From Parapedobacter defluvii (lineage in GTDB: Bacteria; Bacteroidota; Bacteroidia; Sphingobacteriales; Sphingobacteriaceae), in NCBI RefSeq assembly GCF_014642075.1, contig NZ_BMIK01000009.1, positions 124,001-188,000 on the forward strand: a stretch of DNA of 64,000 bases, read 5' to 3'. This document shows positions 29,154 through 42,906 of this stretch, piece by piece. Both the position numbers and the translations under genes were made by a program. How positions within the stretch are numbered: position 1 is the first letter of the stretch; every line of letters starts with the position of its first letter. Below the pieces are notes generated by a model, which worked only from the letters and a program-made list of their open reading frames with translations, did no database searches and was not told where the DNA came from.

Positions 29154-30044
29154 TTAAATAGTGAGGCGTCCACCGGTAACCGGAAGCGTTGCACCTGAGA
29201 TGTAGTTAGCCTCATCCGAAGCAAGAAACACATAGGCAGGTGCTACTTCCACGGGTTGGCCCGGTCGTTCAAAGGGTGTATTTTCGCCAAAATGTTCGTG
29301 ATCGGGAATTGTTGAAGGAATGAGTGGTGTCCATATCGGTCCCGGCGCTACGGCATTCACGCGGATACCTTTGCCCTGTTCCAGCAATATCTGGCTGAGA
29401 TTGGCCGTAAAATTTTGGATAGCCGCTTTGGTGGCCGCATAAGGCAACAGCGTAGGATTGGGTTCATAAGCATTCACCGAGGTGGTATTGATGATGCTTG
29501 AACCGGGCGGCATATGCGGTTGTGCAGCCTTACAAAGGTAAAACATGCTGTGTATGTTGACGGCAAATGTTTTTTCCCACTCCCATGCTGGGATATCCTG
29601 TAAGGTCTCACGGGACATTTGGTACGCGGCATTGTTTACCAAAATATCGATTTTACCGAACTCTTTTAGGACGGTCTCAATGATCTTCTGACAATGTTGT
29701 TCCGAACTGATATCACCTTTTACCGATAGCGCTTTTCTGCCCGCTTCCTCGACGTATTTCAGCGTATCCTGTGCATCGCGGTCTTCCGTATCGTCTAAGT
29801 AGCTGATCACAATATCAGCTCCTTCCCGGGCAAATGCGATGGCCACCGCCTTTCCGATGCCCGAGTCGCCGCCGGTTATAAGGGCCACTTTACCTGTTAG
29901 CCTGTCTTTGCCGCGATACGATTGCTCACCATGATCCGCTTTTGGATCCATCGCTCCCTCGGTTCCGGGAACCTCTTGTGGTCTCCGCGGGAAGGGTGGC
30001 TTGGGATATTTGGCCGTTGGGTCCGTCTTTTTATCTGTCGTCAT
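29154..30044 (-). CDS. SDR oxidoreductase, general-stress type (YghA/GsiB-39-like)
   Basis: A 296-residue SDR with the ~45-residue Pro/Lys-rich N-terminal extension typical of the YghA/general stress protein 39 group. The cofactor motif is TGGDSGIG, NNAAYQ corresponds to NNAG, and the catalytic YAATK follows a Ser in INTTSVNAYEP. Relatives are NADP-dependent aldehyde or alcohol reductases induced by stress. It is divergent from the keto-sugar operon A, whose first gene is a different SDR; the two are not close paralogues. Confidence 0.88.
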   Translation of the reverse strand: MTTDKKTDPTAKYPKPPFPRRPQEVPGTEGAMDPKADHGEQSYRGKDRLTGKVALITGGDSGIGKAVAIAFAREGADIVISYLDDTEDRDAQDTLKYVEEAGRKALSVKGDISSEQHCQKIIETVLKEFGKIDILVNNAAYQMSRETLQDIPAWEWEKTFAVNIHSMFYLCKAAQPHMPPGSSIINTTSVNAYEPNPTLLPYAATKAAIQNFTANLSQILLEQGKGIRVNAVAPGPIWTPLIPSTIPDHEHFGENTPFERPGQPVEVAPAYVFLASDEANYISGATLPVTGGRLTI

Positions 30045-30140
30045 GGATTTTTTCTATTATGTTGCCGTTTTGTTTCTCAGGCTAACAATCGAGTCTTTGG
30101 ATGGTTTCATTTTTATGAGATCAACCCTCGGCTTAACCTT

Positions 30141-30176
30141 AAAATATGTGTAAAAACCGATCAGAAAGTATCAAAA
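30141..30176 (+). promoter_or_regulatory. shared operator-like element, copy 1 (operon A)
   Basis: A 36-bp sequence whose right half, AACCGATCAGAAAGTATC plus AAAA (30155-30176), recurs with one mismatch at 36901-36922 upstream of operon B. ATCA half-sites at 30160 and 30170 are 10 bp apart, one helical turn. The element ends 18 bp before the TAnnTTTG box. It is a probable activator or repressor site, with the AraC-family protein at 35857-36747 as the natural candidate. Confidence 0.7.
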
Positions 30177-30194
30177 TGCTCGTCGGTCTCCATG

Positions 30195-30202
30195 TATTTT
30201 TG
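30195..30202 (+). promoter_or_regulatory. -7 promoter box of operon A
   Basis: TATTTTTG matches TAnnTTTG, 38 bp before the first ATG. No good -33 TTTG is present; the shared element occupies that position, as expected for an activator-dependent promoter. Confidence 0.6.
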
Positions 30203-30240
30203 CTGTATAGGGTCTCCTTTGATAACACAAAGTCCTTGTT

Positions 30241-31065
30241 ATGTTGAAAAAATCAGAAAATGATCGACTCCCGCTCGCCCGCAAGAAAATCGTCATTATA
30301 GGCGGAACGGCTGGCATCGGCCTTTCGGCAGCAAAAGCATTTGTTAGGCGAGGGGCAAAAGTGGTTTCCGTTGGGCGGGATCCCGTTAACAACGAGCATG
30401 CGGAAAATGAATTGGCAGGTTCGGGACTGATTTTTCCGGGAGATGCTATGCAAGCCGGAACCGCTGCTGAAGCAATCGAATTGTGTATACGGGCTTGGGG
30501 TGGCTTTGATGGGCTTTATCACGTAGCGGGTGGCAGTGGCCGGAAGATGGGGGATGGGCCGCTGCATGAAATCACGCCGGAAGGGTGGCAGCATACATTA
30601 AATTTGAACCTGACGTCGGTAATGTTCTCTAACCAAGCAGCGGTACGGGCGTTTTTGCGTGAGAAAAGAGGGGGCACTATTTTAAACATGGGATCGGTAT
30701 TGGCTGATGCACCTGCATCCCATTATTTCGCTACTCATGCCTATGCGGCTGCCAAGGCCGCTATCATTGGTTTTTCGAAATCCATCGCAGCTTATTACAG
30801 CGCCCACAATATCCGGGTTAATGTGATTGCCCCAGGTCTTGTGGCCACGCCTATGGCGCAAAGAGCGGCTGGAGACGCTGAAATTATGCATTTTATTCAG
30901 ACCAAACAGCCCCTTGGTGGCGGCCGAATTGCCGATCCCTCCGATCTCGATGGTGCTGCATGTTATTTTATGTCGGATCTCTCCAGGTTTACGACCGGAC
31001 AAGTATTGTCTGTCGATGGTGGATGGGCACTAAGTGATGGTCAGCTTCAGTCAAGGAATGATTAA
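30241..31065 (+). CDS. SDR family oxidoreductase, first gene of operon A
   Basis: A 274-residue classical SDR. The cofactor loop is GGTAGIGLSAA near residues 20-30. The NNAG position reads VAGGSG, a Ser lies in NMGSVLAD, the catalytic motif is YAAAKAAI, and the family C-terminus DGGW is present. An Arg near the end of strand 2 (SVGRD) suggests NADP(H) preference. It begins a tight operon with a ROK protein 2 bp downstream. In this setting it is a candidate sugar or keto-sugar dehydrogenase; the substrate is unproven. Confidence 0.88.
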   Translation: MLKKSENDRLPLARKKIVIIGGTAGIGLSAAKAFVRRGAKVVSVGRDPVNNEHAENELAGSGLIFPGDAMQAGTAAEAIELCIRAWGGFDGLYHVAGGSGRKMGDGPLHEITPEGWQHTLNLNLTSVMFSNQAAVRAFLREKRGGTILNMGSVLADAPASHYFATHAYAAAKAAIIGFSKSIAAYYSAHNIRVNVIAPGLVATPMAQRAAGDAEIMHFIQTKQPLGGGRIADPSDLDGAACYFMSDLSRFTTGQVLSVDGGWALSDGQLQSRND

Positions 31066-31067
31066 TT

Positions 31068-32015
31068 ATGGGTACGGCTACAGCAATAGGGATTGATTTG
31101 GGAGGAACCAATATAAAGGGGGCTTTGGTAGACATGTCTGGAAAGATTATCCATCGGATGACGCAGGCTACCAACTGTTTTGGAGGAGAAAAAGACAACG
31201 GTCAACGTTGGAAAAAGGCCATCTTTCAAATGGTGGCTGAATTGAAAAAAAGAAGTGCTGTGGCGGCAGTTGGAATAGCGGCGCCGGGTTTGCCTAACGC
31301 TGCCAATTCCGCAATACGGCTCATGCCGGAAAGGTTGGAGGGGCTGGCGCATTTTGTTTGGGCTGATTATTTAAGGGAGAAGTCCGTTTGGGTGTTAAAC
31401 GATGCACACGCGGCACTGATTGCCGAGGCTAGATTTGGTGTAGCAAAAGGATCAAAGAATGTAGTTATGCTGACACTGGGAACGGGGGTAGGTGGGGGTA
31501 TCCTGATCGACGGAAAGCTGTATCAGGGTAAGGATCAGATGGCCGGCCACTTGGGACACATGACGCTGGATGTTGATCGTGAAGATGCCGGTATCACAGG
31601 CATGCCCGGAACCCTGGAGGATGCGATTGGAAGCGCAACCATATTTAAAAGGTCTTTTGGACGATTTGCATCAACCAATGATTTGGTAGAAGCTTATAAG
31701 GGTGGAGATCATTTTGCTACCTATGTGTGGCTGAATGCAGTCCGTAAATTGGCGTTGGGTTTATGCTCCCTGAACAACTTGCTATCGCCTGACCTTTTTA
31801 TACTGGGAGGAGGAATTACCCATACCAGCGATGCGTTGTATAAACCGTTAGCCGACTTTATGGACGTGTATGCGTGGAAAAACGCAGGCCGGAAAACACC
31901 CGTATTGCAAGCGCATTATTCGGATATGGCGGGCGCAGTAGGTGCGGCTGGTTTTGCATTTTTAAAAATGGGCATAATCGGTGGCAATGACGTTGACGTT
32001 ACGCTGCCGGTTTGA
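31068..32015 (+). CDS. ROK family protein, probable sugar kinase lacking zinc cysteines
   Basis: A 315-residue ASKHA-fold ROK protein. The phosphate-1 motif is DLGGTNIKGA (residues 10-19), the catalytic Asp is in LNDAH (110-114), and the phosphate-2 motif is LGTGVGGG (137-144). The His of the zinc site is kept in AGHLGH (159-164), but the usual CxCGxxGCxE cysteines are absent (GITGMPGTLED instead). It has no DNA-binding domain, so it is more likely a kinase than a repressor. It starts 2 bp after the SDR gene. The likely reaction is ATP-dependent phosphorylation of a hexose-like product of this operon. Confidence 0.85.
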   Translation: MGTATAIGIDLGGTNIKGALVDMSGKIIHRMTQATNCFGGEKDNGQRWKKAIFQMVAELKKRSAVAAVGIAAPGLPNAANSAIRLMPERLEGLAHFVWADYLREKSVWVLNDAHAALIAEARFGVAKGSKNVVMLTLGTGVGGGILIDGKLYQGKDQMAGHLGHMTLDVDREDAGITGMPGTLEDAIGSATIFKRSFGRFASTNDLVEAYKGGDHFATYVWLNAVRKLALGLCSLNNLLSPDLFILGGGITHTSDALYKPLADFMDVYAWKNAGRKTPVLQAHYSDMAGAVGAAGFAFLKMGIIGGNDVDVTLPV

Positions 32016-32040
32016 TTTGAACATTTTACGATAGAAGGAG

Positions 32041-32841
32041 ATGGATGTCATACAGGATTACATAGAAAAATGCCGGGAGATTGTAACGGCCATCGAAGAT
32101 CAAAAAAGTGAAATTCGAGTGGCCGCCACCTGGTTTGCTGAAACCATTTTGGCCGGACGTATGGTTCATGTGTTCGGTTCGGGTCACAGCCGTATCATGG
32201 CTGAGGAAATGTGGCCCCGATACGGTTCATTTCCCGGGTTTAATCCCATTGTGGAACTTTCGCTGACGTTCCACAATTTGGTGGTCGGTGCCAATGGTCA
32301 GCGGCAAGCCATGTTTTTGGAAAACGTATCGGGACTAGCGGCCCGGATACTCCGCAATTTCGATCTGAGTGCGCAGGATACGGTACTCATCATATCATCC
32401 AGCGGCTGCAATGTAGTACCGATTGAAATGGCCGCCTGTTTCAGGGAACAGGGCATACGGGTTGTCGCGTTGGTAACGAGGAAACATGCCGAGCAAAGTA
32501 TAAGTAAACGGCCGGATGGCAAAAAACTGACAGACTTTGCCGATTTAGTGCTGGACTCGGGGGCACCGCTGGGCGATGCCATGGTGAAAATTCCGGGACT
32601 GGAGACCCCGGTTTCTCCGGGTTCGACAGTAGGGGGAGCAGTGATGATCAATGCACTGAAAGCGGAAGTGGCACGTTTACTTACCGAGGCGGGGCATCCG
32701 CCTACGGTTTTAAGCGGTGCCAGCACCGTCGGTGCCGAACGCTCGGCGCAACTCTTTGAAAAGGCCTACGATGAACATGCCCATCGTTTAGCACGCCTGT
32801 ATCAATCGGTGGGTGAATCTAACCCTAATGGAAACGTATGA
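32041..32841 (+). CDS. SIS domain protein (UPF0309 type)
   Basis: A 266-residue protein with one SIS phosphosugar-binding domain. It has the first glycine loop VFGSGHSRIMAEE, the second serine motif IISSSGCN, and a C-terminal region (SPGSTVGGAVMINALKAE) typical of the UPF0309 group. SIS domains isomerise, bind or cleave phosphosugars. It follows the ROK kinase, so it may act on the phosphorylated sugar the kinase makes. The exact reaction is unknown. The start lies 25 bp after the ROK stop. Confidence 0.85.
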   Translation: MDVIQDYIEKCREIVTAIEDQKSEIRVAATWFAETILAGRMVHVFGSGHSRIMAEEMWPRYGSFPGFNPIVELSLTFHNLVVGANGQRQAMFLENVSGLAARILRNFDLSAQDTVLIISSSGCNVVPIEMAACFREQGIRVVALVTRKHAEQSISKRPDGKKLTDFADLVLDSGAPLGDAMVKIPGLETPVSPGSTVGGAVMINALKAEVARLLTEAGHPPTVLSGASTVGAERSAQLFEKAYDEHAHRLARLYQSVGESNPNGNV

Positions 32842-32850
32842 TATTGGACT

Positions 32851-34224
32851 ATGACAACGCTAATCAATCATCAACAGGTTCCTTTATTGACCCGCACGGA
32901 TATTTTGGTTATCGGAGCAGGCTCAGCAGGATGCTTGGCGGCTCTTGCAGCGGCGCATGCAGGAAAGCACAAAGTCATGCTCATCGAGCGGTACGGTTTT
33001 GCGGGCGGTACATCAACCCAGATGCTGGATACGTTCTACGGTTTTTTTACGCCCGGCGATGAACCCAAAAAGGTGGTGTCCGGATTGCCGGACACGATTG
33101 TAGATGCGTTATCTTCAACAGGCGATATGTTTCTACGACCTAATACCTATGGAGCTGGCACCGGTGTGAATTACAACCCCGAGCGACTCAAATATGTGTG
33201 GGACAAGAAAATCGTGGAAGCGGGCATTCAACTGCTGCTTCATACCACCCTCGTTGACGTTGCAAGGGAAGGAACCGAACGCTACCTCTGTATACTCTGG
33301 AATAAGGGTGGTTTTTGTAAGGTCGCGGCAAAACGGGTGATTGATGCATCCGGCGATGCCGATTTCTGCCACCTTGCTGGCTTCGGGTATGAAGTAGCCG
33401 GTGAGATCGAGCCTGCGCAAAGCATGACAACCACCTTCCGCATGAGCAACGTCGACCTGGATACGTTTAAAAAAGCGGGTGGCAAGCAACTGTTGAACGA
33501 ACGGATGAAAGCGGCGTATGAATCGGGGAAATATGCATTACCGCGGAAGGAAGGATCGGTGCATGAAATGTGCCAGCAAGGATGTGTGTCGACGGTTGCA
33601 GTAAAAGTATCTGATTTGCATGCATTGGATGCTGCGGAATTGACACGTGCCGAAATAACCGGAAGAAAACAAGCGTTTAACTACGAGGATTTTTTCAGGA
33701 ACGAAATTCCGGGTTATGGGGCCGCCCAGATCATTGGGCTGTCTCATCAGATCGGTGTCCGCGAAACGCGACGGGTGTATGGAGAGGCCCGTCTTACCAA
33801 AGCGGACTGTATGGCCGGAGATATTCCGCACGACCGTATTTTTCTGTGCGGCGCTCCCATTGAAGACCACCGAAAAGGGGATCAGGGAGCAGATGAAACG
33901 TATTGGCAATACATTCCGAACGATGGTGTATACGGTGTGCCTTACGGCACAATTGTGCCACGCGGCAGTGAACAAGCCTGGGTGGTCGGGCGATGTTTTT
34001 CGGCCACGCACGATGCACATGCTTCCTGTCGGTCCATGGCACAGACGATGTCCATGGGGCAAGCAGCAGGGTTGGCAGCGGCAATCACCCTCGACCGGGA
34101 TATCGCTGCCGATGAAATGAATATAACCATGCTGCATGACAGGCTGACCGAGATAGGGGCTATCCTCGAGGTGCCCAAACGGATCGCCGATACCAGCCGG
34201 CACGGTTGGGCAAACAATAAATAA
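32851..34224 (+). CDS. FAD-dependent oxidoreductase (FAD_oxidored type)
   Basis: A 457-residue flavoprotein. The N-terminal dinucleotide motif is VIGAGSAGCLAALAAA, followed by IERYGFAGGTSTQ, which corresponds to the ribose-binding acid and the family's GG-T motif. The C-terminal FAD-contact motif is CRSMAQTMSMGQAAGLAAA. No signal peptide is seen, so it is cytoplasmic. Family members are often found with sugar-catabolic genes in Bacteroidota and planctomycetes; the electron acceptor and substrate are not established. It starts 9 bp after the SIS gene. Confidence 0.85.
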   Translation: MTTLINHQQVPLLTRTDILVIGAGSAGCLAALAAAHAGKHKVMLIERYGFAGGTSTQMLDTFYGFFTPGDEPKKVVSGLPDTIVDALSSTGDMFLRPNTYGAGTGVNYNPERLKYVWDKKIVEAGIQLLLHTTLVDVAREGTERYLCILWNKGGFCKVAAKRVIDASGDADFCHLAGFGYEVAGEIEPAQSMTTTFRMSNVDLDTFKKAGGKQLLNERMKAAYESGKYALPRKEGSVHEMCQQGCVSTVAVKVSDLHALDAAELTRAEITGRKQAFNYEDFFRNEIPGYGAAQIIGLSHQIGVRETRRVYGEARLTKADCMAGDIPHDRIFLCGAPIEDHRKGDQGADETYWQYIPNDGVYGVPYGTIVPRGSEQAWVVGRCFSATHDAHASCRSMAQTMSMGQAAGLAAAITLDRDIAADEMNITMLHDRLTEIGAILEVPKRIADTSRHGWANNK

Positions 34225-34234
34225 GGACTGACAG

Positions 34235-35197
34235 ATGAAGGCACAAACTTTTGTCCGGACGGTAATGGGGGATATAGCGCCCCAAAACCTGGGTCTTACC
34301 TATTCCCATGAGCACATTGTGATCGAGGAAAGTTTTCCTACGCTGCAGAATCCCCTGTTTCTGCTTAACGATACCGATCGGATCTCCGAGGAATTATTGG
34401 CTTTTTATGCAGCCGGAGGCCGGGCCATGGTGGATACCATGCCCGCCAATTGCGGCAGGAACATCCATAAGATGGCAACGGTATCGCGCAATACCGGCGT
34501 GCACATCATCGCCGCCACCGGTATCCATTTGGAAATGTATTACCCGCCCAATCACTGGCGGTATGTGTATACCGAAAATCAACTTACACAGCTTTTTATC
34601 GAAGACGTGACGTTGGGTATCGATGCGCACGATTACAACGGCCCATATGTGGATCGCACTCCCTATAAAGCGGGGATGATTAAGCTAGCTACGGGAGACG
34701 AAAACATCACGGCACACCAGGAAAAAATATTCCACGCAGTGGTTAATACACATCGGGAGACCGGAGTGCCCATCCTGACGCACACAAATGCTGGTAAGCA
34801 TGCGATCGAGCAGGTAAAACTATTCGAAAAATTGGGGGCCGATCTAAGGCATGTGGTAATTTCTCATGTAGACCGCTATCCGGATGTTGGCTACCATAAC
34901 GCACTCCTGGAAACCGGTGTCTGTGTGGAATATGACAGCGCATTCCGGTGGAAAAAGGAAGAAGCCAATTGGACCTATCAGCTGCTGGAAGCATTACTCG
35001 GGGATTTTCCCGATCAGATTACCATGGGAATGGATGCTGCCAAGCATAGCTATTGGAAATCCTATGGAGGCGCGCCGGGACTTGATTTTTTGTTAACTAC
35101 TTTTAAGAGGGATTTAGAGTCAATGGGATTAAGCCGGTATTATGAACGGATATTTATCCGGAATCCCGCAGCGCTTTACACATTTGCAAATCATTGA
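34235..35197 (+). CDS. phosphotriesterase-family metallohydrolase (lactonase-like)
   Basis: A 320-residue amidohydrolase-fold protein. The N-terminal metal motif YSHEH has ligands H25 and H27. A candidate bridging Lys is in AGMIKLATG, and later ligands are His in LTHTNAG, His in ISHVDRY and Asp in MGMDAAKH. Known family members hydrolyse phosphotriesters, lactones or acylated compounds. Next to sugar oxidoreductases, lactone opening after sugar oxidation is the most reasonable role, but this is inference. It is separated from the FAD enzyme by 10 bp. Confidence 0.85.
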   Translation: MKAQTFVRTVMGDIAPQNLGLTYSHEHIVIEESFPTLQNPLFLLNDTDRISEELLAFYAAGGRAMVDTMPANCGRNIHKMATVSRNTGVHIIAATGIHLEMYYPPNHWRYVYTENQLTQLFIEDVTLGIDAHDYNGPYVDRTPYKAGMIKLATGDENITAHQEKIFHAVVNTHRETGVPILTHTNAGKHAIEQVKLFEKLGADLRHVVISHVDRYPDVGYHNALLETGVCVEYDSAFRWKKEEANWTYQLLEALLGDFPDQITMGMDAAKHSYWKSYGGAPGLDFLLTTFKRDLESMGLSRYYERIFIRNPAALYTFANH

Positions 35198-35218
35198 ATG
35201 GAAATAATAAAGAACACC

Positions 35219-35860
35219 ATGGAAAAACTGTCTATTTTTGTTTCTTGTATCTTTCTGTTGGCTATGTATTCTTGCGGCCCACAAAATGACCATACCTCTA
35301 CCGATTGGCAGCCGCTTTTCAACCATCAAAATCTGGACGGTTGGCATGCTTCTCCCGGAGGAACCTGGCAGGTGGAAGATGGATGTATTGTGGGTAAAAG
35401 TTCTGCCGACGAACCCCTTCACGGGATTTTGCTGCACGATGGTATATACGACGATTTTAAATTAAAAGTAGTTTACAAGGCCATCGAAGGCAACAGCGGT
35501 GTGTATTTCCGGGTTGAGGAGGTTGATGATCCCGTCCACGTCTACGGACTTCAGGCAGAAATAGATCCGGAAAAAGATGCGGGTGGATTATACGAAACCG
35601 GGGGACGGAACTGGGTGGTACAGCCTACACCCGAAGATGTCAAAAAATGGTATAAACCCGATGAATGGAATGAAATGGTGATCGTTTGCAAGGGACGAGA
35701 CCTGGCGGTTTTCCTCAATGGTTATAAAACGGCCGAGCTTCACGATGACCCGGGAAGGACGAGTGGCTTGATCGGATTACAATTGCATGGAAACATGGAC
35801 ATGGACGTCCGGTTCAAGGACATCCTGATCATGGAAAACCCCGACGACTTAAACCCTTAG
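35219..35860 (+). CDS. DUF1080 (3-keto-disaccharide hydrolase family) lipoprotein
   Basis: A 213-residue exported lipoprotein. The signal peptide ends at Cys19 (LLAMYSC), and one DUF1080 domain follows with a concanavalin-like jelly-roll pattern: LFNHQNLDGW, WQVEDGCIVGK, NSGVYFRV, and the end motif VRFKDILI. Pfam names the family after cleavage of 3-keto-disaccharides. I use the ATG at 35219 because it gives a proper lipoprotein signal; an ATG at 35198 directly after the previous stop adds seven residues. It is the last gene of operon A and overlaps the convergent AraC-family gene by 4 bp. Confidence 0.87.
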   Translation: MEKLSIFVSCIFLLAMYSCGPQNDHTSTDWQPLFNHQNLDGWHASPGGTWQVEDGCIVGKSSADEPLHGILLHDGIYDDFKLKVVYKAIEGNSGVYFRVEEVDDPVHVYGLQAEIDPEKDAGGLYETGGRNWVVQPTPEDVKKWYKPDEWNEMVIVCKGRDLAVFLNGYKTAELHDDPGRTSGLIGLQLHGNMDMDVRFKDILIMENPDDLNP

Positions 35861-36747
35861 GCGCTGGTGAGGTAAGCGACATCGGAAAGCGCATCCTGTT
35901 TATATTGCAACGGAGACTTATCCGTTATTCGCTTAAATTGCCTGTTGAAGTTGGACATATTGTTAAACCCGCTCTCATAGCAGATCTGCGAAATATTGTA
36001 ATTCTCTTCCACTAACAGTTTGCAGGCGTAGCCGATCCTGATTTCGTTGAGAAAACTTGAGAATGCCTTCCGCGTGCAGGACTTGAAGAAACGGCAAAAC
36101 GTAGGGACGGACATATTGGCAACCTTGGCTACATCTGCAAGCCCGATGTTCTTACGGAAATTTGCCATGATGTATTCATGAACCTTGGTCATCCGGTCGT
36201 TGTCGGCCACCGTATGCTGCTGCACATAGCCCGGACTTGCCAATGCAACGGCCTCTTCGCTCAGTGCTAAAATTTCAAGAATGCTCAGCAGCTGCAATAT
36301 TCGTTTGTATCCGTTTAAGTTGAACATTTCGTGCATCATGTCTGCCACGCGCTGCCGGGTTTCGCCGATGATTTTCAAGCCGCACTGTGACTTGTGGAAA
36401 AGTTTTCTAACCGGTGACATTTCGGGAATATTGAAGAATTCCTTTCCCAGGAAATCTTCGTTGAAATGAATGACAATCGCTTCAGCGGTAAGCGATGGAT
36501 TGTTTTCATAGTAAGCAGGATCATTTTGATAACAATGTGGCAGATTGGGGCCCAATAGCACCAAATCACCGTCAAAAAAAGGCTCTTCATGATTTCCCAC
36601 GGTTCGCTTGCCCGTACTTTTTACGACAAGCACCAATTCATATTCAGGATGACAATGCCAGGGAGTTGGATAATACGGATAGACATCCTTTTGCAGAACA
36701 AACGAGTACTTCGGATCTAAAATCAATTTTTCTTGCCTCGGTTTCAT
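35857..36747 (-). CDS. AraC family transcriptional regulator with cupin sensor domain
   Basis: A 296-residue regulator. The N-terminal cupin-like ligand domain includes PWHCHPEYELVLV, GDLVLLGPNLPH. The C-terminal two-helix-turn-helix DNA-binding domain (residues ~190-290) includes LADVAKVANMSVPTFCRFF and ISQICYESGFNNMSNFNRQF. It sits between operons A and B on the opposite strand. Both operons carry the same operator-like element with half-sites one turn apart, as AraC-type proteins prefer. It is therefore the probable regulator of both, sensing a sugar or keto-sugar through the cupin. Confidence 0.92.
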   Translation of the reverse strand: MKPRQEKLILDPKYSFVLQKDVYPYYPTPWHCHPEYELVLVVKSTGKRTVGNHEEPFFDGDLVLLGPNLPHCYQNDPAYYENNPSLTAEAIVIHFNEDFLGKEFFNIPEMSPVRKLFHKSQCGLKIIGETRQRVADMMHEMFNLNGYKRILQLLSILEILALSEEAVALASPGYVQQHTVADNDRMTKVHEYIMANFRKNIGLADVAKVANMSVPTFCRFFKSCTRKAFSSFLNEIRIGYACKLLVEENYNISQICYESGFNNMSNFNRQFKRITDKSPLQYKQDALSDVAYLTSA

Positions 36748-36886
36748 GAGAAATGCTTGTAATTGTCAGTATCTTTCCCTTTTTCAGCGGGTAGCACGAT
36801 AGCCGTGTTATAATTGATGTTGGTTAGTAAACTCCTCTTTCTTTCACTAAAATACCACTTTTGCTAATAATCTGCAGGTTTAAGTC

Positions 36887-36922
36887 AAAATATTTGCATG
36901 AACCGATCAAAAAGTATCAAAA
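36887..36922 (+). promoter_or_regulatory. shared operator-like element, copy 2 (operon B)
   Basis: 31 of 36 positions match 30141-30176, and the right-hand 22 bp (36901-36922) differ at one position. ATCA half-sites occur at 36906 and 36916. It ends 18 bp before TATATTTG, exactly as in copy 1. The remaining 267-bp region between the AraC gene and operon B shows no gene. Confidence 0.7.
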
Positions 36923-36940
36923 CGAAATTTGAGGCCTGCC

Positions 36941-36948
36941 TATATTTG
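36941..36948 (+). promoter_or_regulatory. -7 promoter box of operon B
   Basis: TATATTTG matches TAnnTTTG, 66 bp upstream of the ATG at 37015. The shared element occupies the -33 position, as at operon A. Confidence 0.6.
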
Positions 36949-37014
36949 ACTTCAGGGAACCAATTGAATAAGACGGCCGATCGGAAGCCATCATACAGGA
37001 AAATGTTGAACAGC

Positions 37015-37884
37015 ATGAATATCTATGATAGAAGGACTGTACTGAAAGGGTTTGCTGCGTGGGCGGTCCTCGCTGCGGTGAATGTTCCGTGGCCCGGGTT
37101 TGGGACCGGCAACAAACGGCGGTACCGCATCGGGGCGTGTGACTGGTCGATCGGCAAGCAGTGCGATACGGGTGCGCTCGAACTGGCCGGTATACTGGGG
37201 CTGGACGGTGTACAGGTGAGTTTGGGAACGGTTCAAAACGGAATGCACCTGCGGCGCAAGGTTGTGCAGCAAGCTTACCTGGAGGCCGTTGCTGCCCATG
37301 GGGTCAAAATATCCAGTCTTGCTATCGGTGAACTCAACAACGTTCCTTATAAATCTGAACCCGAGACCGAGGAATGGGTACGTGGCAGTATTTACGCTGC
37401 GAAAGCGTTGGGGTGCCGGGTTGTGCTGCTCGCATTTTTCGGCAAAGGTGACATCCGGGGAGACGGGGCGGGCATTGCAGAAGTGATCAGGCGGCTGAAG
37501 AAAGTTGCACCGCTGGCCGAGAAAGAGGATGTCATATTGGGCATCGAATCGTGGCTGAGCGCCGATGAACTGCTGGCTATCATCGGTGAGGTCGGCTCCT
37601 CACATGTACGTGTATATTACGATGTGGCAAACGCTACCGAAATGGGATACGATATCTACCACGAAATGAAACAGCTGGGCAGCGAATATATTTGCGAAGT
37701 CCACGCCAAAGAAAACGGGGCCCTGCTCGGGCAGGGAAAAATTGATTTTAAGAAAGTGCGGCATGCACTGGACGGGATTGGCTATGGGGGGTGGGTTGTC
37801 CTGGAGGGAGGGGTGCCTGCCGGAATGGATGTGAACGAGGCTTATTTGGCAAATACCCGATACATCCGGTCAGTATTCGGCTGA
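37015..37884 (+). CDS. Tat-exported sugar phosphate isomerase/epimerase-like TIM-barrel protein
   Basis: A 289-residue xylose-isomerase-like TIM barrel. A twin-arginine signal (RRTVLKGFAAWAVLAAV) indicates export of the folded protein, often with a bound metal. Core motifs include GIESWLSADELLAI, YYDVANATEMG, EVHAKEN and a final VLEGGVP strand, carrying typical Glu/Asp/His metal ligands. Exported members occur with DUF1080 and Gfo/Idh proteins in Bacteroidota keto-glycoside loci, where TIM-barrel proteins have been linked to lyase or epimerase steps. The ATG at 37015 is chosen to start the Tat signal; the frame is open upstream. Confidence 0.85.
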   Translation: MNIYDRRTVLKGFAAWAVLAAVNVPWPGFGTGNKRRYRIGACDWSIGKQCDTGALELAGILGLDGVQVSLGTVQNGMHLRRKVVQQAYLEAVAAHGVKISSLAIGELNNVPYKSEPETEEWVRGSIYAAKALGCRVVLLAFFGKGDIRGDGAGIAEVIRRLKKVAPLAEKEDVILGIESWLSADELLAIIGEVGSSHVRVYYDVANATEMGYDIYHEMKQLGSEYICEVHAKENGALLGQGKIDFKKVRHALDGIGYGGWVVLEGGVPAGMDVNEAYLANTRYIRSVFG

Positions 37885-37944
37885 CAAACGGATTCCATTC
37901 AACAAAAGTTGCATAGGATAGAACAAACAAACGGTTCAACGGTA

Positions 37945-40818
37945 ATGAATAGAATTTATATAAGCCTTATAGGAATCTTTCTAATAGGGGCCTGGGCCGC
38001 CTGCCAACAGGGAAATGCGCCACAGACGGAAGCCAAACTGTTCGTTGCGGACGATCTGGAAGCGACGGTCTGGGCTGAATCCTCGATGTTTTACAACCCG
38101 ACGAATATGGATGTGGATATCCGGGGAAGGATATGGATAACCGAAGCGGTAAACTACCGTAATTTCAATAATGATTCAGCCAGACACCTTACCCATGCCG
38201 CCGGAGACCGCGTAATGATCCTGGAAGATACTGACGGGGACGGTATTGCGGATAGCTCGAAGGTATTCATCCAGGATAAGGATATTGTATCGCCGCTGGG
38301 TATATCGGTTATCGGAAACAAAGTGATTGTATCGTGTTCGCCCTCCGTGATTGTGTATACAGATGAAGACGGGGACGACAGGCCGGATCATAAGGAGGTA
38401 TTCCTGACTGGATTCGGCGGTCTCGACCACGATCACGGCCTGCATACCGGTGTGGCCGGACCCGACGGCAAATGGTATTTCGCCGTGGGTAATGCGGGGC
38501 CCCACGTAGTTACGGATAAAAACGGGTGGACACTCCGTGCGGGGAGTGTGTACACCGGTGGATCGCCGTACAACGGAGAAAATACACCCGCCCAGCGGAG
38601 CGATGATGGCAGGATATGGACCGGGGGATTGGTATTCCGGATCAATCCGGACGGTACGGGTCTGGAAGTATTGGGCCATAATTTCCGCAATTCGTATGAG
38701 GTGGCGGTTGATTCGTACGGTAATATGTGGCAGAGCGACAACGACGATGAGGTGGATGCCTGCCGGACCAGCTGGATCATGGAGGGGGGTAATGCCGGTT
38801 TTTTCAGTGAGACCGGCGTACGGACCTGGCGGGCAGAAAGAAGACCTGGTCAGACCATACAGACCGCCCATTGGCATCAGGAAGACCCGGGTGTCATGCC
38901 GGTGGGAAAGATTTACGGCCCCGGTGCCCCCACGGGAATCGTGGTCAACGAAAGCGATGCGCTCGGTAAGGCTTACCGGGGCATATTGCTCAGTGCCGAT
39001 GCGGGAAGAAACGCGATTTTCGGGTATTACCCCACGCCGGAAGGTGCAGGTTATGACCTTTCGGACGGAAGCCCGTTCATCTCTTCCACCGGTGTGGACG
39101 ACGAATTTTACCGTTGGAACAATGTCGACGAAAATACGAAAAAGTGGTTCCGGCCAAGCGACGTAGCCATCGGAACGGACGGGGCCATCTATGTGGCAGA
39201 TTGGTATGACCCCATCGTGGGCGGGCACCAGATGATGGATTCCGTCGGTTATGGGCGTATCTACCGGATTGCACCCAAAAATAAGAAACTGATTACCCCG
39301 AAAATCGACCTGGATCAGACTTCCGGCCAGATTGCTGCCTTCCTGAACCCGGCGATTAATGTTCGGAATCAGGGATTCGAACAGCTGAAGGCGCAGGGAT
39401 CGGAAATCCTGCCTGAACTGATGAAACTATTGGAATCGGAAAACCCCTATCACCGTGCCCGTACCGTCTGGCTCTTGGGCCAACTAGGCCGGGAGGGTAT
39501 CGATAAAATCGTCGGATTGCTGGGAGACCATGACCCGCAGATCCGGATAACGGCGCTGCGGGTACTGAGGCAGGTCGACAGCGGTCATTTACTGGCGTAC
39601 GCCGATAGGATAGCGGATGACCCCTCGCCCGCCGTGAGAAGGGAGGCAGCCATTGCGATCCGGGATATACCTTTTGAACAAAGCAGTCCCGTGATCATGA
39701 AGCTGGTCGACGGCTTCGACGGCGAGGACCGTTTCTATCTGAATGCACTGGGAGTCGCAATGGAAGGCAAAGAAAGCGAAGCATACGCGGCGCTGTTGCG
39801 CCGCGCGGGAAACCCCGAACCAGAGAACTGGTCGAAAGCTTTTGCAGCGATCGTATGGGAACTGCATCCCGACGAGGCGGCGGACGCATTGAAGCAACGG
39901 GCATTAAATGAAAAGCTTGATCTGGACGTCCGGAAAAAGGCGGTCGTAGCCCTTGGTTTCATCCCCACCCGGGAGGCGGCGGTATCCATGCGCGGGTTGC
40001 TTGCGTCAGCCGATCAGGACATCGCCGGTTCAGCACAATGGTGGCTGCAGTTCCGGAAAACCAATGACTGGAGGCCCTATCTGGGGGATTGGGAATCACC
40101 GCTGGATAAACTGCTGGACGCACAGCCCGAAGCACTGGGGTATTACAATCAATACCGGGATGACAGCGGGAGCCCGAATGATAAGCGGAAAGCGGCACTG
40201 CAACTGGCAACCAGCAAAACGGGTAAACTCTACCTGATCGAACTCGCCGCTGCAGGGTTGCTGCCGGATTCATTGAAGGCGGAGTTAAGGGACCGGGTAC
40301 TGGCAGATGACGACCGGAATTTCAGAGCCCTTGCCGCCCATTATTTCGGTGCAGATGATACCGGTTCTTACGACCTGGAAGAAGTGGCGGGGTTGCCCGC
40401 GGATGCGGAGCGGGGAAAGACACTGTTCGTTGCAAACTGCATTGTATGCCACAAAATAGGTTCCATCGGCCGGGAAATCGGACCTGATCTGTCCAACATC
40501 CATACCCGCTTTGACCGCAGGGCAATACTGGACGGGATTATAAACCCTGCAGCTGCCGTGGCATTCGGTTCCGAACCGTACCTGGTGCTGTTGAAGAACG
40601 GGGCGGCACTTTATGGGTTGATGCTGTCGGATGGCCCGGTGGTGACCATCATGGATCCTTACGGCAAGCAATATGTCATAGACGGTGAAGCTGTGGCCGG
40701 AAGGCGGCATCTCAATACGAGTATCATGCCACCGCCCAGCTATATACCCTTGACACCGCAGGATGCGGCAGATATCAGTGCCTACTTATCAATGAATGAC
40801 AAAGAGCTGAATGACTAA
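37945..40818 (+). CDS. PVC-type propeller/HEAT/cytochrome c lipoprotein
   Basis: A 957-residue lipoprotein (signal to Cys20 in AWAAC). The N-terminal six-bladed-propeller region (~residues 35-440) resembles a membrane-bound sugar dehydrogenase (NPTNMDVDIRGRIWITEAVNYR region, GGLDHDHGLHTG, NNVDENTKKWFRPSDVAIG). HEAT-like helical repeats follow (~450-740). A single c-type heme domain has CIVCH at 832-836 and a probable axial Met in SIMPPPSY. This is the planctomycete/Bacteroidota PVC-type architecture. It probably takes electrons from periplasmic sugar oxidation to the respiratory chain. No quinone or PQQ-binding residues were verified. Confidence 0.87.
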   Translation: MNRIYISLIGIFLIGAWAACQQGNAPQTEAKLFVADDLEATVWAESSMFYNPTNMDVDIRGRIWITEAVNYRNFNNDSARHLTHAAGDRVMILEDTDGDGIADSSKVFIQDKDIVSPLGISVIGNKVIVSCSPSVIVYTDEDGDDRPDHKEVFLTGFGGLDHDHGLHTGVAGPDGKWYFAVGNAGPHVVTDKNGWTLRAGSVYTGGSPYNGENTPAQRSDDGRIWTGGLVFRINPDGTGLEVLGHNFRNSYEVAVDSYGNMWQSDNDDEVDACRTSWIMEGGNAGFFSETGVRTWRAERRPGQTIQTAHWHQEDPGVMPVGKIYGPGAPTGIVVNESDALGKAYRGILLSADAGRNAIFGYYPTPEGAGYDLSDGSPFISSTGVDDEFYRWNNVDENTKKWFRPSDVAIGTDGAIYVADWYDPIVGGHQMMDSVGYGRIYRIAPKNKKLITPKIDLDQTSGQIAAFLNPAINVRNQGFEQLKAQGSEILPELMKLLESENPYHRARTVWLLGQLGREGIDKIVGLLGDHDPQIRITALRVLRQVDSGHLLAYADRIADDPSPAVRREAAIAIRDIPFEQSSPVIMKLVDGFDGEDRFYLNALGVAMEGKESEAYAALLRRAGNPEPENWSKAFAAIVWELHPDEAADALKQRALNEKLDLDVRKKAVVALGFIPTREAAVSMRGLLASADQDIAGSAQWWLQFRKTNDWRPYLGDWESPLDKLLDAQPEALGYYNQYRDDSGSPNDKRKAALQLATSKTGKLYLIELAAAGLLPDSLKAELRDRVLADDDRNFRALAAHYFGADDTGSYDLEEVAGLPADAERGKTLFVANCIVCHKIGSIGREIGPDLSNIHTRFDRRAILDGIINPAAAVAFGSEPYLVLLKNGAALYGLMLSDGPVVTIMDPYGKQYVIDGEAVAGRRHLNTSIMPPPSYIPLTPQDAADISAYLSMNDKELND

Positions 40819-40834
40819 TTAAAAACTTAATATA

Positions 40835-41713
40835 ATGGTCCATTACGCGATTTTTTGGTCGGTGCGGAGCAATGGAAGCGCTCCCATAAGGCGAGCAGTA
40901 CTTTTGGTGGTTTTGGCATTTTGGAGCTGCTGGGGCTACGCCCAGCACATTTCCATAAATGAGGCCGCAGATACAATCAAGGATTTCTCGCAACCGGAAG
41001 CTACGGAAATTTGGGAGCCGGTTCCTCCTAGCGTCGTCCCGGGAGAAGGTATGAAACCACCTTCCGATGCCATTGTGTTATTTGGTATGGATGGCGACGA
41101 AAAGAATTGGGTCATGGCAAAAGACGGCTCTGAATGTCAATGGGAGGTACGTGATCATGTATTGAAGGTCAAACGGGGAACGGGAAACCTGAAAACACGA
41201 CAGCAGTTCGGCGATTGCCAACTACATATTGAATTTATGCTTCCGACGGACGCCACGGACCGTGAACATCCCACCAATTCCGGTAACAGTGGTATATTTT
41301 TGCAGGGTCGATATGAAATCCAGATTTTCGATTCCTACAATAGCGGAACATCGCTTTATTCGAATGGCCAGACGGGAAGTGTGTATAAACAAGCTATTCC
41401 GCACGTAAATGCAAGTAGGAAAAACGGGGAGTGGAACACGTTTGACATATACTATACCGCACCTCGTTTCCGCTATAATGGGACCGTGGTGCAACCCGCT
41501 TATGTGACCGTTGTCCATAACGGGGTATTGATATTAAATCACTTTGAAATCCAGGGAACAATCCAATATATTGGCATTCCGCATTATGAACCGCATGGCA
41601 AAGCAGCTATCGAATTACAGGAGCATGGCAGCGAGATAAGTTTTCGCAATATTTGGATCAGGGAAATCCCGTCCACCAGTTCATTGGAAGGAGGTAAACT
41701 ATGGCACAACTAG
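40835..41713 (+). CDS. DUF1080 (3-keto-disaccharide hydrolase family) secreted protein
   Basis: A 292-residue exported DUF1080 protein. The N-terminal hydrophobic signal ends near GYAQ (about residue 36) and lacks a lipobox, unlike the operon A copy. The domain spans ~80-285: VLFGMDGDEKNWV, WEVRDHVLKV, GNSGIFLQGRYEIQIFD, and the final ISFRNIWIREI strand. It shares the fold but little close identity with the 35219 copy, so it probably has a different substrate or step. Its end overlaps the Gfo/Idh gene by 13 bp. Confidence 0.87.
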   Translation: MVHYAIFWSVRSNGSAPIRRAVLLVVLAFWSCWGYAQHISINEAADTIKDFSQPEATEIWEPVPPSVVPGEGMKPPSDAIVLFGMDGDEKNWVMAKDGSECQWEVRDHVLKVKRGTGNLKTRQQFGDCQLHIEFMLPTDATDREHPTNSGNSGIFLQGRYEIQIFDSYNSGTSLYSNGQTGSVYKQAIPHVNASRKNGEWNTFDIYYTAPRFRYNGTVVQPAYVTVVHNGVLILNHFEIQGTIQYIGIPHYEPHGKAAIELQEHGSEISFRNIWIREIPSTSSLEGGKLWHN

Positions 41714-42906
41714 CGTTATTGGGAGCGGGTTTCATCGCCCGGTTTTATGCAGATTCCATCCAGTCACTCAGAAGCAAAGATCGAATCTGCACGGTGTATG
41801 CGCGAAGGGCGGAGAGCGCTGAAAAGCTAGTCCGGGACTATGGGGTTCCCCGCTATAGCACTTCTATCGAAGACGTAGTCAACGATCCCGAAGCCGACGC
41901 GGTCATCATTGCTTTGCCCAATCACCTGCACGAGGCAGCGGTAGAAGCATGTGTGCGTGCAAAGAAGGCCGTTCTCTGTACCAAGCCGCTTGGCAGAAAC
42001 GCTGCTGAAGCTCTTAGGATGTTACGCGCGGTTGAGAATGCCGGTATTTTTCACGGGTATTTGGAGGATCTCTTGTATACTCCTAAAACGAGGAAAGCCA
42101 TATCGGATGTGGCAAGCGGTGCGCTGGGGAAGATTCTATGGACCCGGTCGCGCGAAGCACATCCTGGGCCACATAGCGATTGGTTTTGGGACAAGGAAAC
42201 CGCTGGCGGAGGTGCCATCATTGATTTGGCCTGTCATTGCATTGAAATCGGCCGGGGCTACATTGGTAAAGATATTCGCCCACTTGAAGTAATGTGCTGG
42301 GCAGACACGCTGGTAAAACCCATCGATGCGGAAGATAATGCAATCGGATTGGTGCGTTTTGAAAATGGAGCTGTTAGTCAGTTTGAGGTGAGCTGGACAT
42401 TCCGTGGGGGACTGGATCTGCGGGACGAAGTAATGGGATCTGCGGGGACGGTATGGATCAATAATTTTCTTCGCACCGGCTTCGAAATGTACAGTTCGGG
42501 CGAAGGCAATACCTATGTGGCCGAAAAAGCCGAAAGCAACGAAGGATGGCTATTCCCTGTCGGCGATGAAGTACATGAGCTGGGATATCGGCATATGTTT
42601 ACCGATATGTTCGATTCGATGGAACGGGGTACGGAGCCCGGCGAAACATTTTACGATGGATATATCGTGAATGCCGTGATGGATGCTGCCTATCAGTCAG
42701 TACGGTCAAAAAAGTGGGAGCCGGTGGTGCTGGACGTGTGGCGGGGTAAGACATCCGTTGAAAAAGATAATCTGTTCAGGGATTATGACGAACACCATTA
42801 TTTAATTAAAGAGGAATTGACCCACTATGGTACGGTAAAAGTTATCTTGAAGAATAAACTAACAGGTGATATTGTTGAACAAGAAAAGCCTGCCGATGAT
42901 CGGTAG
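41701..42906 (+). CDS. Gfo/Idh/MocA family oxidoreductase
   Basis: A 401-residue NAD(P)-dependent sugar dehydrogenase. The Rossmann motif LLGAGFIARFYADS is at the N-terminus, and CTKPLGRNAAEA contains the conserved catalytic Lys of the EKP motif, with Thr in place of Glu. The central active-site motif is GGGAIIDLACHCIEIGR, with the proton-donor His. No signal peptide is present, so it is cytoplasmic, whereas the rest of operon B is exported. It could oxidise or reduce the C3 position of a sugar taken up after cleavage. It is the last gene of operon B; a terminator follows 34 bp downstream. Confidence 0.9.
   Translation: MAQLALLGAGFIARFYADSIQSLRSKDRICTVYARRAESAEKLVRDYGVPRYSTSIEDVVNDPEADAVIIALPNHLHEAAVEACVRAKKAVLCTKPLGRNAAEALRMLRAVENAGIFHGYLEDLLYTPKTRKAISDVASGALGKILWTRSREAHPGPHSDWFWDKETAGGGAIIDLACHCIEIGRGYIGKDIRPLEVMCWADTLVKPIDAEDNAIGLVRFENGAVSQFEVSWTFRGGLDLRDEVMGSAGTVWINNFLRTGFEMYSSGEGNTYVAEKAESNEGWLFPVGDEVHELGYRHMFTDMFDSMERGTEPGETFYDGYIVNAVMDAAYQSVRSKKWEPVVLDVWRGKTSVEKDNLFRDYDEHHYLIKEELTHYGTVKVILKNKLTGDIVEQEKPADDR

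Follow-up and report, generated by a model that had tools for sequence, protein, structure and literature searches.

A putative operator shared by two sugar-oxidation operons that flank a cupin-AraC regulator gene in Parapedobacter defluvii

Introduction

AraC/XylS-type regulators of sugar genes are mostly activators. Within the same phylum as the bacterium studied here, the AraC-family L-rhamnose regulator of Bacteroides thetaiotaomicron activates sugar genes, and its local regulon was inferred by comparative genomics; 21-bp direct repeats have been inferred for AraC-type rhamnose regulators, one of them in Bacteroides (PMC3870299). At the class II promoters of Escherichia coli AraC and Pseudomonas XylS and MtlR, an operator of ~37 bp or two half-sites lies just upstream of, or touches, the upstream hexamer (PMC4514859). 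In a flavobacterium, the TAnnTTTG promoter box has been placed at -12 to -5 (PMC9723704). As for the enzymes, DUF1080 proteins have 3-keto-disaccharides as substrates in Bacteroides (3-ketotrehalose hydrolase BT2157), and the same has been proposed for Caulobacter (PMC9007349).

Here, we analysed a 64,000-nucleotide stretch of the Parapedobacter defluvii genome (the window; all coordinates below refer to it), for which an earlier note had proposed that a cupin-AraC protein controls two sugar-oxidation operons as one regulon through a shared upstream element. By the sugar 3-oxidation route we mean PVC-type haem proteins, DUF1080 3-keto-glycoside hydrolases, an FAD oxidoreductase, and a lactonase. 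To our knowledge, the substrates and control of such operons are largely undescribed. The proposal is supported by comparison, given that the element is confined to these two sites in its genome and recurs beside orthologs of the regulator gene.

Results

Two operons and a regulator gene

Operon 1, on the forward strand, encodes an SDR-family dehydrogenase (30241–31065; PF13561), a ROK-family kinase (31068–32015; PF00480), a SIS-domain sugar isomerase-like protein (32041–32841; PF13580, NF002805), an FAD-dependent oxidoreductase (32851–34224; PF12831), a phosphotriesterase-family (lactonase-like) hydrolase (34235–35197; PF02126, under the NF045706 cut-off), and a 3-keto-disaccharide hydrolase family (DUF1080) protein (35198–35860; PF06439). 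Operon 2, on the same strand, encodes a xylose-isomerase-like TIM-barrel protein with a twin-arginine-like leader read by eye (37009–37884; PF01261), a PVC-type haem-binding protein with DUF7133, HEAT, and cytochrome c parts (37909–40818; TIGR02604, TIGR02603), a second 3-keto-disaccharide hydrolase family (DUF1080) protein (40835–41713), and a Gfo/Idh/MocA oxidoreductase (41701–42906).

The open reading frame that had been read as a cupin-AraC protein, the proposed binder of both operators, was borne out on the reverse strand (35857–36747). Its C-terminal helix-turn-helix pair is covered by HTH_18 (PF12833, E=8.5e-20, residues 207–284), and its N-terminal ligand-binding domain matched Cupin_2 (27.4 bits, cut-off 27.2) and AraC_binding (22.9 bits, cut-off 21.1), in both cases narrowly above the cut-off. 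Four close orthologs were found, with identities of 95% in Parapedobacter indicus RK1 (G093, locus L075), 71% in Catalimonadaceae bacterium JC749, and 69% in Pedobacter sp. B4-66 and P. foliorum, beyond which identity falls to 48%. In the alignment, the first recognition helix of the five orthologs reads SxP[ST]FCR, which was absent from all paralogs examined; the second, NNMSNFNRQF, is almost identical between the orthologs and the near paralogs.

The element upstream of both operons

Direct sequence comparison showed that 30141–30176 and 36887–36922 are identical at 31 of 36 positions, with 21 of 22 in the right-hand 22 bp, exactly as first described. When the two intergenic regions were Markov-shuffled as a pair 1000 times, no pair was as good, with at most 18 identities in a 22-mer and 26 in a 36-mer. 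We delimit the extended, putative operators as copy A (30139–30176, forward strand, 22-bp core 30155–30176), upstream of operon 1, and copy B (36885–36922, forward strand, core 36901–36922), between araC and the divergent operon 2. The P. indicus counterpart of an open reading frame that starts inside element B (36898) contains stop codons and changes frame; element B is therefore not coding, and we dismissed a coding role for this frame. Divergent from operator A lies a second SDR gene of an unrelated subfamily (29154–30044, reverse strand), in the same order as in P. indicus.

As the genome holds just two copies and these lie 6.7 kb apart, the likeness might be put down to recent duplication of a promoter fragment with no regulatory meaning. 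However, the likeness of A to B is limited to the element and its promoter box, the flanks being unlike, and both operators with their boxes are kept in P. indicus against diverged flanks. Three further genomes also have the element, upstream of various types of operon. Considering this conservation, the additional genomes, and the composite scan described below, a recent copy appears very unlikely, to the point of a nearly negligible chance.

Distribution of the element and of the regulator

The own-genome tests were pattern searches of 5,796,438 bp in 66 contigs. Within three mismatches, the 22-bp core was found only at operators A and B in the whole P. defluvii genome, and the composite of core, 18 bp, and box returned the same two sites at the same tolerance. 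The genome search that the earlier note had suggested thus yielded two copies, both of them before the two operons, as the few copies of a local sugar regulon would be.

The comparison with related genomes, also suggested by the note, favoured its proposal as well: the element adjoins the araC ortholog, precedes orthologous or similar operons, and is always followed by a box 18 bp on. It lies beside araC in all four close-ortholog genomes, between araC and a divergent operon in JC749, B4-66, and P. foliorum. The five genomes carry 11 elements (two each in P. defluvii, P. indicus, and B4-66, four in JC749, and one in P. foliorum), of which we count about eight as independent; two pairs among the five genomes are closely related. 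These 11 composite sites have 0–1 mismatches, and all other matches across the five genomes have 3. Ten of the elements precede sugar-oxidation-type operons, and one precedes a SusC/SusD-type operon. According to the whole-genome scan, the extra promoter copies in JC749 stand before a PSCyt/PSD1 and DUF1501 operon and a SusC/SusD and ASPIC/UnbV operon, and the extra copy in B4-66 stands before a PVC, FG-GAP, and TIM operon. Gene order around araC varies among the five genomes; the adjacency of element and araC does not.

In a sample of 395 genomes of the class, including P. defluvii, the ortholog (threshold E<=1e-100) and the composite occurred in P. defluvii only, and the 394 others had neither. 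The genus-mate G068 has homologues of the TIM and PVC proteins (73% and 84% identity) without a neighbouring araC ortholog, its best AraC match genome-wide showing 44% identity, and the element is absent there. In another genome (G322, locus L155), an SDR-ROK-SIS-FAD-lactonase operon with 51–68% identity is found with neither the araC ortholog nor the element on its contig, which suggests that the operon 1 enzymes can stand alone. Several weaker matches were discarded as sites: those to the core with 1–2 mismatches in other members of the family (G149, G086, G083, and G070) lack a -7-like box at 18 bp and lie inside open frames of 189–448 codons, and one in P. foliorum (L188) with 2 mismatches falls within an open reading frame of 638 aa and has no box.

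The operon 1 proteins are 63–77% identical between one Catalimonadaceae genome (L076) and Parapedobacter, and a close FAD homologue is present in only one of eight other Parapedobacter genus-mates, namely P. indicus. This patchy spread of operon 1 homologues suggests horizontal transfer of the cassette.

A protein encoded elsewhere could also bind the element, with araC as a mere neighbour; AraC paralogs are numerous in the genomes searched, and the binding of the element by the AraC protein is predicted from sequence. On the other hand, the element adjoins the araC ortholog in 5/5 genomes despite differing gene order, and ortholog and element are both missing from the rest of the 395-genome sample. 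Seven Parapedobacter genomes (loci L193–L199) carry a paralogous cupin-AraC group (42–44% identity) that is transcribed divergently from a PVC-protein/ThuA-like/Gfo operon. There, a different element, TGATATAATTTGACTATAAAGRGATAA, is strongly conserved in front of a TAnnTTTG-like box, which is what one site per regulator would predict. We therefore give a different binding protein only a slim chance. The paralogs with their own, different element suggest, in addition, that the arrangement is generic and that the site sequence is specific to each regulator. A further group of AraC paralogs (L200–L205), in most cases transcribed divergently from a sugar isomerase-like/kinase-like gene pair, shows an extended region of upstream conservation, CCGATYTCCAAGGAAATG...AATAAGAAGGCAATAA. 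In paralog group P3, a block upstream is conserved and the present element is absent.

Since the element is confined to the two operons within the P. defluvii genome and four other bacteria have it next to an ortholog of the regulator gene, the AraC-type regulator very probably controls both sugar-oxidation operons.

Promoter boxes and position of the element

As previously noted, each element ends 18 bp before a TAnnTTTG box, and this distance is exact for both window copies: the -7-like box of operon 1, TATTTTTG (30195–30202, forward strand), follows operator A, and that of operon 2, TATATTTG (36941–36948, forward strand), follows operator B. For all 11 elements in the five genomes, exactly 18 bp separate the end of the element from a box of the form nAnnTTYG. 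Taking the box as -12 to -5, as in the flavobacterium (PMC9723704), the core would cover roughly -52 to -31, the extended element would reach back to about -68, and transcription is predicted to start near 30207 (operon 1) and 36953 (operon 2). On this placement relative to the start, the operator adjoins or overlaps the upstream promoter hexamer region at a fixed spacing in 11 of 11 cases.

A promoter-adjacent position alone does not separate an activator from a repressor. The same AraC protein might bind the element and mainly repress, with the ligand causing derepression; at the -33 region, which the site overlaps, a bound protein could stand in the way of RNA polymerase, and within the Parapedobacter sample the -33 box does not set promoters apart. 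Against this, the fixed 18 bp at all 11 promoters suits polymerase contact better than simple blocking, and most AraC/XylS-type sugar regulators are, as a matter of general knowledge, activators. We accordingly consider repression unlikely, albeit with a modest chance of being correct, and activation the preferred reading.

Two further arguments for the regulon carry little weight. It is true that neither promoter has a TTTG at -33, but this hardly sets them apart: of 41 TAnnTTTG sites upstream of genes in the window and in related Parapedobacter loci, just 2 show a TTG at the -33 spacing. Because absence is normal in these loci, we rejected the missing box, as uninformative, as a sign of a weak, activator-dependent promoter. 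Similarly, the ATCA half-sites 10 bp apart are present in both window copies, but the first ATCA is ATAA or ATAG in 4 of the 11 related elements, these being the four JC749 elements.

Conserved blocks across the elements are TAAAA, TGYA, AACYGAT, and AAAGTATCAAAA. No internal repeat symmetry survived a search over all spacings. Spacings named beforehand reached nominal values only (p 0.03–0.08 for period 21 and p ~0.03–0.04 for period 10), and neither beats the all-spacings search.

Discussion

We consider it likely that the cupin-AraC protein uses the ~38-bp element as its operator for class II activation of both sugar-oxidation operons, with a ligand sensed through the cupin. Binding, activation, ligand, and start sites are what we infer in this model, which would run as follows. 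The cupin domain would sense a sugar or oxidised-sugar ligand, and at both promoters the AraC protein would bind the element, at about -68 to -31. From a site reaching the -33 region, the bound protein would contact RNA polymerase, and the SDR-ROK-SIS-FAD-lactonase-DUF1080 operon would be switched on jointly with the TIM-PVC cytochrome-DUF1080-Gfo operon.

As a form of gene control, the locus very probably places two operons in one local regulon under an AraC-type protein, an arrangement of a known and ordinary kind. The operator sequence proposed for the cupin-AraC protein is undescribed as far as our literature search and knowledge go, and a literature search on the combination of PVC-type heme-binding proteins and sugar found nothing. 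Tentatively, and short of calling it probable, the protein may be a previously undescribed dedicated regulator of the Bacteroidota sugar 3-oxidation route, belonging to a regulator-operator-operon cassette that is patchy across distant lineages and in some of them recruits further PVC/PSCyt cytochrome and SusC/SusD operons. The locus offers a concrete candidate operator and regulator for this class of sugar-oxidation operons. The regulon would group DUF1080 proteins, PVC cytochromes, FAD oxidoreductase, lactonase, ROK, and SIS proteins, probably in one pathway, which aids pathway prediction, and the fixed distance to the TAnnTTTG box is suggested as a way to recognise operators in Bacteroidota.

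Among known systems, the B. thetaiotaomicron rhamnose regulator, from the same phylum, resembles the proposed one in that it is an AraC-family protein that activates sugar genes, has a local regulon deduced by comparative genomics, and has a long upstream operator; it differs in its predicted direct repeat with a 21-bp period, a period that is only nominal here, and in target pathway and operator sequence (PMC3870299). The Parapedobacter paralogs of loci L193–L199 share the regulator subfamily, a similar divergent operon, and an own element upstream of a TAnnTTTG-like box, but their operator is unrelated and its spacing to the box is different. Compared with E. coli AraC and Pseudomonas XylS and MtlR, which have clear tandem half-sites, a second half-site is not evident here, and the promoter is of the Bacteroidota TAnnTTTG type. 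The resemblance to these class II promoters lies in an operator of similar length just upstream of or touching the upstream hexamer, and the TGYA-N6-GAT stretch of the element recalls the XylS half-site TGCA-N6-GGNTA (PMC4514859).
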